DNA from: an uncultured Veillonellaceae bacterium
GTDB lineage: Bacteria; Bacillota; Negativicutes; Selenomonadales; Selenomonadaceae
Reading direction: 5' to 3'
NCBI GenBank assembly: GCA_902773295.1
Contig: CACYDT010000082.1
Coordinates: forward strand, 1-64,000
DNA: 64,000 nt
In this document: positions 52,886 to 56,219 of the stretch, piece after piece
Layout: the number at the start of each line of letters is the position of its first letter
How positions within the stretch are numbered: the stretch's first letter is position 1
The notes under the pieces: generated by a model
Databases searched by the model: none
What the model was told of the DNA's origin: nothing
What the model saw: the letters and a program-made list of their open reading frames with translations, nothing else
Made by a program: the position numbers and the translations under genes

Positions 52886-53001
52886 AAGGATCCCCCCAAA
52901 AAGAACCGAATTACGATATATTATAACGCTGCTTGGAAAGTTTTGCCAGAGGCAAAGCTGGAAATCAGGAATTGTTCATCAGTAGAAAGGCGGTCCAGGT
53001 A

Positions 53002-53553
53002 ATGAAAGCAAATAGGAAGATCTGCGGAGCGGTTATGATGGCAGCGGCCATTCTTTTGTCCGGCTGTGTTTCCGAGGGGGGCGAAGAAGCGAAAGCCAGC
53101 GTGGCTGCCAAGGAATCGCAGGGCGCATTCCCTGCCTTCCGCACGAAGTCCTTGTCTGGCGAAGATGTGACAAATGAGGTGTTCGCCCGGAAGAAAATCA
53201 CGGTCATCAATATCTGGGGAACCTTCTGCCCGCCATGTATCGGAGAAATGCCGGAACTGGGGGAATGGGCGAAGAACATGCCCAAGGACGCGCAGCTGAT
53301 AGGGATTGTATGTGATGCCAATGGTGAGCAGGACAAGGACACAATCGCGGAGGCCAGAAGGATTCTGAAGGAAGCGGATGCGGACTTCCTGAATCTCGTG
53401 CCGAACAGTGGGCTCCTGCAATATCTGGAAGGTGTGCAGGCAGTGCCCACGACGATTTTCGTGGATGCGGAAGGAAAGATTGTGGCGCAGCCGGTGGTAG
53501 GTGCGGATGTCCAGAGATACAAGAACGTCGTGAAGGAATATTTGGGGGAATAG
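53002..53553 (+). CDS. Lipoprotein thioredoxin-like protein (TlpA/ResA type)
   Basis: 183 residues. Lipobox LSGC with lipidated C22, then a TlpA-type thioredoxin domain with the active site WGTFCPPC (C76, C79), and the cis-proline region VQAVPTTIFVD. It is a membrane-attached, envelope-facing dithiol oxidoreductase. It precedes a CXXC small protein and a polyferredoxin gene, an arrangement seen in clostridia. Confidence 0.9.
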   Translation: MKANRKICGAVMMAAAILLSGCVSEGGEEAKASVAAKESQGAFPAFRTKSLSGEDVTNEVFARKKITVINIWGTFCPPCIGEMPELGEWAKNMPKDAQLIGIVCDANGEQDKDTIAEARRILKEADADFLNLVPNSGLLQYLEGVQAVPTTIFVDAEGKIVAQPVVGADVQRYKNVVKEYLGE

Positions 53554-53554
53554 C

Positions 53555-53698
53555 GTGGAGCTGGAAAGAAGGATGGCACAGGCCATTGCCCTCCTGCTGG
53601 CCTTGGGCGGCATCTTCTATGGCACGAGCCGGGGGGAAGCCTCCCTTGTGCTTGGCAAGGCCATCCGCGTCTGCATGGAATGCATTGGATTGGGGTGA
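53555..53698 (+). CDS. 47-residue CD1871A-type CXXC membrane peptide
   Basis: A small gene between the thioredoxin and ferredoxin genes, with GTG start five bases behind GGGGGA. It reads MELERRMAQAIALLLALGG, then FYGTSRGEASLVLGKAIRVC, then MECIGLG. One hydrophobic helix is followed by the C-terminal pair C-M-E-C. This matches the small CXXC family (CD1871A) known between TlpA and 4Fe-4S genes. Role unknown; probably electron or thiol relay with its neighbours. Confidence 0.85.
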   Translation: MELERRMAQAIALLLALGGIFYGTSRGEASLVLGKAIRVCMECIGLG

Positions 53699-53707
53699 GA
53701 TAGCGAG

Positions 53708-54583
53708 TTGAGCCAATCCCTTCGAAGAAAACTGGTGCAGGTGGCAGTTTTTGTCTTCACGAATTTTCATCTTGCAAATTTTATGACGGGGAAGATTTAC
53801 AAGGGAGATTGGAAGTCGGCTTGCGTGCCGGGCTTGAACTGCTATTCCTGTCCCGGGGCGGTATTTTCCTGTCCGCTGGGGGCGTTGCAGGCAGTTGCCG
53901 GCGCACCGGGCCATCGGTTCAGCTTTTATGCGGCGGGCTTTCTCCTGGCCGTTGGGACGATGATGGGAAGGGCTGTCTGCGCCTTTTTCTGTCCTTTCGG
54001 CTTGTTCCAGGAACTTCTGTACAAAGTCCCCGTGCCCAAGATGGGGATTTGGAAACGCCTGGTCTATCTGAAATACGTCCTCCTTTTGGTGTTTGTGCTC
54101 TTTCTGCCCATGACATGGAGGAATTATGCCGATGCCGGCGCTCCTGCCTATTGCGAGTATATCTGTCCGGCAGGCACTCTGGAGGGCGGACTGCCGCTTC
54201 TGGCGACACATCCGGAATTCCGGCAGGCATTGGGACTGCTCTTCGCTTGGAAATTGACGGTTCTCCTGCTGGTGCTTTTCGGAAGCATGGTGCATTACCG
54301 ATTTTTTTGCAAAATCCTTTGCCCTCTGGGAGCTATCTACGGCCTCTTGAACCGCATCAGCGTGTATCGTCTGCATGTGGATCAGGAGCGTTGCGTGAAT
54401 TGCGGTAGATGCGGAAGAAGTTGCCGTATGGGGGTCGATCCTTTGCGGCATCCGGATGCGGCGGAATGCATTCGCTGCGGGGAATGCGTGACGGCCTGCC
54501 CAAAGGGAGCTATTTCCATGAAGGCAGACCTGATAGTTCCATGGACGAAGAGCCATTCGTCCATGCGGCAAAAACAGGAATGA
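53708..54583 (+). CDS. Membrane 4Fe-4S ferredoxin protein (NapH/YccM-like)
   Basis: 291 residues. About five hydrophobic segments with CAFFCPFGLFQE and CKILCPLGAIYGLLN, the cysteine-proline motifs of NapH/CcoG-type proteins, and a C-terminal pair of clusters (CVNCGRCGRSCRMG, CIRCGECVTACPKG). It would move electrons across or within the membrane. The TTG start lies behind GGGGTGAG. The likely partner of the upstream thioredoxin and CXXC peptide. Confidence 0.88.
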   Translation: MSQSLRRKLVQVAVFVFTNFHLANFMTGKIYKGDWKSACVPGLNCYSCPGAVFSCPLGALQAVAGAPGHRFSFYAAGFLLAVGTMMGRAVCAFFCPFGLFQELLYKVPVPKMGIWKRLVYLKYVLLLVFVLFLPMTWRNYADAGAPAYCEYICPAGTLEGGLPLLATHPEFRQALGLLFAWKLTVLLLVLFGSMVHYRFFCKILCPLGAIYGLLNRISVYRLHVDQERCVNCGRCGRSCRMGVDPLRHPDAAECIRCGECVTACPKGAISMKADLIVPWTKSHSSMRQKQE

Positions 54584-54606: not shown

Positions 54607-55209
54607 TTGAAAAGTTTCATGAGAATTGTAGCTGTTGCAGCAATGCTGTTGCTTCTGGTGATTTCCGGCTGTGCCAGGGCAGACGAAGCGTCCTCTGGCA
54701 GCAGTGCCGGCAAGCCGCAGGTGGTTTCGGAAACATCCTCGTCGAAGAATGTTGCAGGTGTTTCTTCCAAGTACAAGATCAAGGACATCACTCATCTTAA
54801 AAATACGCAGAATTTTGCCAAGGGTGCATTGGAGCATATCTTTGACGGCACCATCAACAAGAAGGGAAAAGCTACGGGCTATCATTATTCCATGATAGAG
54901 GACAGCAAGGGACAGATTCTGGAGGGAACACGGAGCCATCCGGATGCCCATGGCGTATTCACCGCTAAGGTTCGTGTCGGGGATGTAAGGAAGAACGGGT
55001 TCAGTTCTTTCTACCCGGAAACATGGTCACCGCAGGAGGTCGTGGATGCCATCAACGAGGCATACAAGGATGCCGTGAACAATCCGGAGAATCCTCGCGG
55101 AGATTTGTGGATCGGTCATTCCGGGAAGCTTGAGATAGATATGTATCTGAATGAGAAAAAGAAGATTGTTACGGCATATCCGATTTTTCAGGAAAACAAA
55201 GCGAAATAA
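54607..55209 (+). CDS. Lipoprotein with EndoU-type RNase domain
   Basis: 200 residues. The N terminus KSFMRIVAVAAMLLLLVISG then C22 is a lipoprotein signal (ISGC). After a Ser-rich spacer (25-55) the EndoU domain runs from about 60. It shows EHIFDGTINKKGKATGYHYS (H77, H93), GTRSHPDAHGVFTAKV (H111, H115, K121), SSFYPETWSPQEVVDAINEAY and IDMYLNEKKKIVTAYP. In known EndoU toxins two histidines and one lysine are catalytic; which ones apply here needs a model. EndoU domains usually sit at the C terminus of CdiA/WapA-type toxins. Here the domain is stand-alone and lipidated. TTG start eight bases behind GAGGG. A terminator follows. Confidence 0.78.
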   Translation: MKSFMRIVAVAAMLLLLVISGCARADEASSGSSAGKPQVVSETSSSKNVAGVSSKYKIKDITHLKNTQNFAKGALEHIFDGTINKKGKATGYHYSMIEDSKGQILEGTRSHPDAHGVFTAKVRVGDVRKNGFSSFYPETWSPQEVVDAINEAYKDAVNNPENPRGDLWIGHSGKLEIDMYLNEKKKIVTAYPIFQENKAK

Positions 55210-55210
55210 A

Positions 55211-55234
55211 GAGGCCGGGAGACCGGCCTTTTTT
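55211..55234 (+). terminator. Rho-independent terminator after the EndoU gene
   Basis: AGGCCGG (55212-55218) pairs with CCGGCCT (55223-55229), loop GAGA, followed by a T-run. The fic ribosome-binding site AAGGAG starts four bases after it. Confidence 0.88.
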
Positions 55235-55251: not shown

Positions 55252-55863
55252 ATGACTATCCAAAATAAATTAGGCATTACTGATCCCATAGAATTGGCGC
55301 ATATAGAAGAACGCCTGACTAAGAAACGTGCGCTGGAATTGTATGATGCTGGAATTCTCGATCAATACCCTGTGGGAACTTTGGCAGGCCTGCAATCTAT
55401 ACATGGCTATTTATTTCAAGATATCTACGAGTTTGCCGGTCAGCTCCGTACGGTCAACATAGCTAAAGGTCATTTCCGTTTTGCTCCGGTGTTGTATCTG
55501 GAGGCTGCGTTACACAACATAGATAAAATGCCTCAGGATACCTACGAACATATCATCGAGAAATATATCGAAATGAACGTTGCCCATCCTTTTCGTGAGG
55601 GAAATGGCCGGAGCACACGAATTTGGCTTGATTGCATCCTAAAAAAAGAGCTGGGCATGGTTATTGACTGGAGCAAAGTAGATAAAGAAGATTATCTTTT
55701 TGCTATGGAGCGCAGTCCCGTACGCAATAAGGAACTCATGTCTTTGCTGAAAGAAGCCTTGACCAGCCAGATAAATGACCGTCAGGTTTATATGAAGGGG
55801 ATAGATGCCTCTTACCAATATGAAGGATACAGCGCCTACAAAACCGAGAATACATCGTTATAA
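55252..55863 (+). CDS. Fic/DOC family AMP-transferase, class III autoinhibited
   Basis: 203 residues. Fic enzymes transfer AMP (or another nucleotide) to protein hydroxyls. The active site is H112-P-F-R-E-G-N-G-R120 with S121, the canonical HxFxEGNGR. The C-terminal tail holds S187-Y-Q-Y-E191-G192, which fits the inhibitory motif [S/T]xxxE[G/N] of class III Fic proteins; no separate antitoxin would be required. Base composition is visibly AT-richer than its neighbours, suggesting transfer. ATG at 55252, eight bases behind AAGGAG. Confidence 0.9.
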   Translation: MTIQNKLGITDPIELAHIEERLTKKRALELYDAGILDQYPVGTLAGLQSIHGYLFQDIYEFAGQLRTVNIAKGHFRFAPVLYLEAALHNIDKMPQDTYEHIIEKYIEMNVAHPFREGNGRSTRIWLDCILKKELGMVIDWSKVDKEDYLFAMERSPVRNKELMSLLKEALTSQINDRQVYMKGIDASYQYEGYSAYKTENTSL

Positions 55864-55883: not shown

Positions 55884-56219
55884 ATGATAAAATATGAAAT
55901 CAAGAGGAGTGGGGAAGCCCACCCGGTTCCGGTTGTGGTGTTCGAGGAAGAAGCTTATGGATTGGCAGGTACTTTTCTCTTGGCAGAGGCCAGGAGTTTT
56001 GGCGCTGAAATATTGTCTGCAATGGATGAGGTTTGTGTGGGCGGAAGGTCATGCAGTTTTTTTTCAGGCAATGCATTCAGCTTGGAAATTACTCCAAGCT
56101 TCACAAAGGTCGTGGATGATATCCTTGGAAAGGAGTGCAGGATATCCACGAAGGATTTCAGGGAAATCGCGGGAGAATATTGCCGGGCATGCGAGAAAAT
56201 CAGCGGAATGCCAAAATAA
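55884..56219 (+). CDS. Hypothetical protein, 111 residues
   Basis: I do not recognise this protein. It starts at 55884 with AGGAGG six bases before the ATG, 20 bases after the fic stop, so it is probably co-transcribed with fic. It has no signal peptide or transmembrane segment. It contains four cysteines (C51, C57, and in the C-terminal YCRACEKISG) and a hydrophobic central beta-like segment (CSFFSGNAFSLEITPSF). A small cytosolic immunity or antitoxin role for EndoU or Fic is a guess only. Confidence 0.6.
   Translation: MIKYEIKRSGEAHPVPVVVFEEEAYGLAGTFLLAEARSFGAEILSAMDEVCVGGRSCSFFSGNAFSLEITPSFTKVVDDILGKECRISTKDFREIAGEYCRACEKISGMPK

Follow-up and report, generated by a model that had tools for sequence, protein, structure and literature searches.

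A lipoprotein-borne EndoU RNase and its candidate immunity partner in rumen Selenomonadaceae

The described systems closest to the locus studied here are the type VIIb LXG-EndoU toxins, such as those of Priestia megaterium (NZ_CP085444) and Listeria innocua (NZ_CP095725). Their EndoU domains belong to the same clade as the domain reported here (34-42% identity), carry the same active-site pattern and are followed by a homologue of the gene that we call c1. The CdiA-CT/CdiI pair of Escherichia coli STEC_O31 (5HKQ) shares the EndoU toxin fold, and its CdiI ranks first, in a tie with unrelated folds, among the structures compared with the c1 model, although its active-site residues are different (H187, H204, K261, T262 and H321; PMC9086364). 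The SitA/SitI system of myxobacteria also combines a lipobox with a C-terminal nuclease and has its immunity gene immediately downstream. SitA, however, has escort domains at its N-terminus and depends on outer-membrane exchange by TraAB (PMC8546572, PMC5562445), and its homologues have been reported from Myxococcales only. As a more general likeness, the pair can be compared with barnase, an exported RNase of the related BECR fold, and barstar, its cytoplasmic inhibitor.

The present locus differs from each of these systems. A lipoprotein signal takes the place of the LXG carrier, and EssC did not exceed the cut-off in the genomes tested. Compared with the STEC_O31 system, the EndoU protein is only 200 aa long, its own genome has no CdiA-type TPS protein, and c1 is unlike CdiI_4 in sequence. 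Where SitA has escort domains, a 33-aa low-complexity linker is all that precedes EndoU, in a class without Lol. Barnase is secreted in soluble form and belongs to another clade, whereas the EndoU protein carries a predicted lipid anchor. By its domain and its partner, EndoU-c1 is a polymorphic toxin-immunity pair, but by the defining features of those systems it is neither an LXG effector nor a CDI system.

A predicted lipoprotein with a C-terminal EndoU domain

The window analyzed here is a stretch of 64,000 nucleotides from an uncultured Veillonellaceae bacterium, and the closest named relatives of its EndoU locus come from rumen Selenomonadaceae/Veillonellaceae MAGs. The EndoU gene comprises the following features.

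54607-55209, + strand: lipoprotein-EndoU open reading frame, product of 200 aa
54607-54672, + strand: type II (lipoprotein) signal peptide ending in the lipobox VISG-C22, read from the sequence and from conservation of the Cys in relatives
54673-54771, + strand: disordered Ser/Ala-rich low-complexity linker of 33 aa, from AlphaFold2 pLDDT
54772-55206, + strand: EndoU RNase domain, residues 56-200, from PF14436, residue conservation and fold matches

The reading frame begins with TTG, preceded by GAGGG, and an alternative ATG lies at 54619. A K/R-rich n-region and a hydrophobic stretch lead to the lipobox, whose Cys is kept in all 17 other N-terminally complete copies of the family (16 from Selenomonadaceae and one from a Clostridia MAG); C22 is also the only Cys of the protein. 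Residues 74-193 matched PF14436.11 (E 4.4e-26; 92.2 bits against a cut-off of 25.3). The proposal that this is a stand-alone EndoU with a lipoprotein signal is thus confirmed, with one PF14436 domain, lipobox C22 and a short linker. The linker, with a pLDDT below 50 over residues 32-51, is 33 aa long, compared with 34-68 aa in relatives. No second EndoU was found in the genome, of which the assembly is 88% complete. The upstream region (52933-54583) encodes two proteins that look like a redox pair unrelated to the toxin, namely a thioredoxin lipoprotein of the TlpA/ResA type and a 4Fe-4S membrane protein resembling NapH.

An AlphaFold2 model built on an alignment of 20 relatives showed a confident domain from about residue 56, preceded by the disordered linker. 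Using Foldseek, the best solved match was 5hkq_A, the EndoU toxin of the E. coli STEC_O31 CDI system (E 1.3e-3), and VIA-align gave coronavirus nsp15 (Z 9.0), the calcium-activated metazoan EndoU (8.4) and 5hkq_A (7.9). The structure comparison thus bears out the EndoU fold, with 5hkq_A, nsp15 and EndoU heading the lists. Searches of the PDB with the toxin by phmmer and by profile returned nothing meaningful, and solved EndoU structures were reached only by fold search.

Across the 20 relatives, H77, H93, K129 and S133 are invariant; position 189 holds Thr or Ser and position 191 Tyr or Phe. From the alignment, the catalytic set is predicted to be H77/H93/K129/S133/T189/Y191, so that the two catalytic histidines, the lysine and the C-terminal Ser/Thr that an EndoU enzyme requires have counterparts in H77, H93, K129, S133 and T189. 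By order and spacing, we take the nsp15 equivalents of the set to be H235, H250, K290, S294, T341 and Y343. The set thus resembles that of the uridylate-specific EndoU/nsp15 enzymes. Among the residues that the initial annotation had named for mutation, H93 belongs to this set, whereas H111 and H115 vary freely; the other histidine is H77.

In a tree of EndoU domains, the lipoprotein versions form one group, close to the LXG and other large-carrier versions. Several other EndoU proteins were encountered. In genome G575 (locus L117, 4447-5142), a stand-alone EndoU protein has a hydrophobic anchor at its N-terminus but neither a lipobox nor an adjacent c1, so an EndoU can be extracytoplasmic with no partner encoded beside it. 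In genus g11 of the same family, four loci (L018, L019, L021 and L022) encode short EndoU-like proteins, 155-164 aa where complete, that begin with MGTGK(S/T)GRC and have no signal; lacking a lipobox, they were rejected as examples of the same architecture. The EndoU toxins at three further loci (L085, L115 and L116) are more divergent and have a different immunity-like family behind them; the one such gene scanned, after the L115 toxin, proved to be PF18624 CdiI_4.

The downstream gene c1 and the intervening Fic gene

To characterize the neighborhood, we gathered related EndoU loci from 189 Selenomonadales genomes and other sources and clustered their neighboring genes. A single family, c1, sits directly downstream of EndoU. 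In the window, the region beyond the toxin gene is arranged as follows.

55212-55234, + strand: terminator-like hairpin AGGCCGG-GAGA-CCGGCCT with a T run, in the interval between EndoU and Fic, read from the sequence and listed on the - strand too
55252-55863, + strand: class III (NmFic-type) Fic adenylyltransferase (NF046029, 295 bits; cut-off 230)
55884-56219, + strand: c1, candidate cytoplasmic immunity protein for EndoU, 111 aa, from HMM, alignment, co-occurrence and fold

With the window member left out of its training set, a c1 HMM recovered 55884-56219 with an E value of 5e-39, and the product was also aligned with the other family members (alignment A1). Downstream of EndoU, c1 was found in 21 of the 21 loci read past the toxin, including the window with its intervening Fic gene. 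The distance from the toxin stop to the c1 start was -4 to +6 bp in 17 loci (16 from other Selenomonadaceae and one from Clostridia) and 14-29 bp in three Lachnospiraceae-type loci, compared with 674 bp in the window. The initial annotation held that no nearby gene is a recognised immunity protein; although no database names one, a conserved partner is present, and it had been overlooked because the Fic gene had come between it and the toxin.

Close relatives of EndoU are patchily distributed, occurring in 18 of the 189 Selenomonadales genomes and five of 30 genera. c1 accompanies them in 17 of the 18 genomes, and in the remaining one (G138) the toxin gene is cut off by the edge of the contig. 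Outside these genomes, the 189 Selenomonadales yielded one weak c1 match in one further genome. The genes flanking the pair vary between loci. Mean identity is 50% for c1 and 75% for the EndoU domain, so the partner diverges faster; toxin and c1 co-diverge, a pattern that plain vertical descent would also give.

The pairing extends to other carriers. A plasmid search with the EndoU toxin identified, in Priestia and Listeria, seven genes that bear the annotation "T7SS effector LXG polymorphic toxin". We read the downstream genes at three LXG-EndoU loci and found a c1 homologue immediately after the toxin in Priestia megaterium (E 3e-14), P. koreensis (E 2e-13) and Listeria innocua (E 8e-8), while 2000 shuffled decoys reached no better than E 0.1. 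c1 also lies downstream of an 878-aa EndoU toxin in a genome of another family (G329), and a more distant c1 relative follows a 614-aa EndoU toxin. The EndoU domain and its c1 partner therefore occur on a lipoprotein, on LXG proteins and on the 878-aa carrier.

The model of c1 (pLDDT 93) placed 5hkq_I, the CdiI of the STEC_O31 complex, first among 999 chains (Z 8.1, rmsd 3.4 over 93 residues), a weak rank in that T7SS chaperone LcpA-type folds, at Z 7.7-8.0, and PURA folds were tied with it. This chain is the CdiI paired with the very EndoU toxin that tops the toxin's own Foldseek search. The rank of the predicted fold supports c1 as an immunity protein without proving it. Searched with c1, Foldseek returned nothing at E 0.001 or better; viral polymerases, its top rows, had low TM and were dismissed as a common arrangement. 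Pfam, NCBIfam and PADLOC gave chance-level matches and no curated family; searches of viral contigs and phage records, and of plasmids with c1, gave no match. Using hhalign, no sequence link was found to CdiI_4, the family to which 5hkq_I belongs and whose members go with other EndoU toxins. Given the pairing as well, c1 appears to be the immunity family belonging to this group of EndoU toxins, one that is so far unnamed.

The Fic protein matches a described family, NmFic-type class III Fic, but it is a neighbor outside the toxin-immunity unit. It contains HPFREGNGR and a C-terminal SYQYEG, and relatives occur in 93 of the 189 Selenomonadales genomes, on other contigs where the EndoU pair is also present. 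Among the loci read, Fic stands between EndoU and c1 in the window alone. The Fic gene has a G+C content of 42.6%, lower than that of the toxin gene (48%), of c1 (47%) and of the window (54%). The motif ATTTT(T)CAGGA is found twice, at the 3' end of the toxin gene and just ahead of c1, as if an originally coupled junction had opened there. Fic is thus probably a bystander that was inserted later and uncoupled toxin from immunity in this lineage. With the Fic gene and, ahead of it, the terminator-like hairpin lying between the two partners, expression of c1 may have become separate from that of the toxin in this genome. A role for Fic as immunity protein or co-toxin was rejected, since relatives keep Fic elsewhere and have EndoU pairs without it.

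Two loci show variants of the cassette. In G129 (L034, about 2470-2480), TGA stands in place of the lipobox Cys codon, the EndoU frame being otherwise open, and c1 is intact. The toxin has possibly been lost and the immunity gene kept, an outcome expected if immunity is worth keeping after toxin loss, or the TGA is possibly an assembly error. In a Lachnospiraceae MAG (L027, 3237-6001), a 563-aa EndoU protein is followed by c1, an EndoU-like fragment of 70 aa and another copy of c1, identical to the first in its C-terminal part; this is an orphan cassette array.

Localization and secretion routes

Display in the outer membrane or on vesicles, as suggested by the initial annotation, is unsupported by our searches. 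A LolA profile matched nothing in five genomes of the family, while the control set was positive in six known genomes. In published surveys, neither LolA nor LolB turned up in any Negativicute, and no outer-membrane lipoprotein of this class had been proven (PMC5007114, PMC5491611, PMC10665443). Because Lol is absent, the default site of the EndoU lipoprotein is the outer face of the cytoplasmic membrane, and its exposure on the surface of a diderm cell is doubtful.

Searches for known carriers were similarly negative. LXG is absent from the EndoU lipoprotein and from the seven genomes searched. For EssC, the genomes tested gave only sub-cut-off FtsK-domain matches, as does E. coli, the window's own genome being 88% complete. 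CdiA-type TPS proteins (PF05860) were found neither in this genome nor in the congener G187. G167 holds several large TPS proteins, and on its contig C15 (98371-100473) a 5037-aa open frame with TPS domains shares the contig with the EndoU pair. The EndoU lipoprotein has no delivery domain: ahead of EndoU there are only the signal and the low-complexity linker.

Proposed role of the pair and alternatives

Very probably, the pair as such is an RNase with its cytoplasmic inhibitor. Because c1 pairs with EndoU both here and on LXG toxins, we interpret the locus as a polymorphic-toxin EndoU-immunity cassette placed on a lipoprotein signal, and we favor, on balance, a function in antagonizing neighboring non-kin cells. 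In this scheme, c1 would bind the newly made EndoU domain in the cytoplasm and keep it inactive. Export and lipidation, through Sec, Lgt and Lsp, would follow, so that the RNase ends up outside the cytoplasmic membrane, held by a flexible tether. On entering neighboring non-kin cells, EndoU would cut RNA, probably 3' of uridylates, and kin would be spared because they express c1. We infer the RNase activity, its inhibition by c1, export and lipidation; delivery into other cells is the most conjectural step of the scheme.

Antagonism is preferred because the same module arms LXG toxins, its distribution is patchy, its flanks vary, and divergence is faster in the partner than in the toxin domain; the repeated EndoU-c1 pieces of L027 and the TGA codon of G129 also fit polymorphic-toxin behavior. 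The contact toxin proposed initially remains the leading reading, although the absence of an immunity protein that accompanied this proposal did not stand, as the c1 family lies directly downstream in relatives. Against it, there is no delivery domain, unlike in SitA, with its escort domain, or CdiA, with its cytoplasm-entry region; the lack of Lol and the EndoU of G575 with no adjacent c1 count against it as well. That rumen Selenomonadaceae without Lol, LXG or EssC kill by contact, using a lipid-anchored, carrier-free EndoU and a new immunity family, is a tentative proposal to which we give somewhat less than even weight. If true, it implies an undescribed lipoprotein-toxin route out of one envelope and into another.

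The lack of a delivery domain, of Lol and LXG, and of a TPS protein in the same genome would suit a housekeeping role resembling that of barnase and barstar, in which a lipid-anchored RNase facing the periplasm or the surface degrades extracellular RNA, either for nutrient scavenging or as RNA of phages or lysed neighbors, and c1 protects the cytoplasm before export. With no Cys other than C22, EndoU could fold and act before export, so that an inhibitor would be needed; the membrane-anchored EndoU of G575 lacks an adjacent c1, and the catalytic set resembles that of uridylate-specific EndoU/nsp15. We regard this role as the main and a serious rival, yet a clearly less likely one than antagonism, because domain and partner are homologous to the EndoU-immunity module that ends injected LXG toxins, distribution is patchy with varied location, and the partner diverges faster than the toxin.

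Two other explanations have much lower probability. EndoU held by c1 might turn on the cell that makes it, acting in its cytoplasm upon failed export or disturbance of the envelope by a phage, as a defense or suicide system that includes Fic. Toxin and cytoplasmic partner do form an operon-like unit in relatives, and the Fic protein matches the PADLOC candidate family PDC-S04, but a conserved export signal is unexpected for a cytoplasmic suicide toxin, PADLOC gives no match for EndoU or c1, and relatives have Fic elsewhere, making this reading highly improbable. Least probable of all is that c1 serves as an export chaperone of the EndoU lipoprotein and not as an immunity protein. While the LcpA-type chaperone folds tied with CdiI suggest such a role, T7SS targeting factors act on LXG N-terminal regions, of which the lipoprotein has none; c1 tracks the EndoU domain alone across lipoprotein, LXG and other carriers, and immunity genes usually stand where c1 does, downstream of the toxin gene.

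The c1 genes appear to make up an immunity family, as yet without a name, for EndoU toxins of both LXG effectors and lipoproteins, and the locus presents an EndoU-immunity cassette on a very small carrier. It also demonstrates that a toxin-immunity pair can escape gene-neighbor reading because of a single inserted gene. If the lipoprotein does not kill, this case would show a weapon module turned into a tethered housekeeping RNase. If it kills neighbors, diderm Firmicutes would have a contact-toxin route that uses no known carrier.
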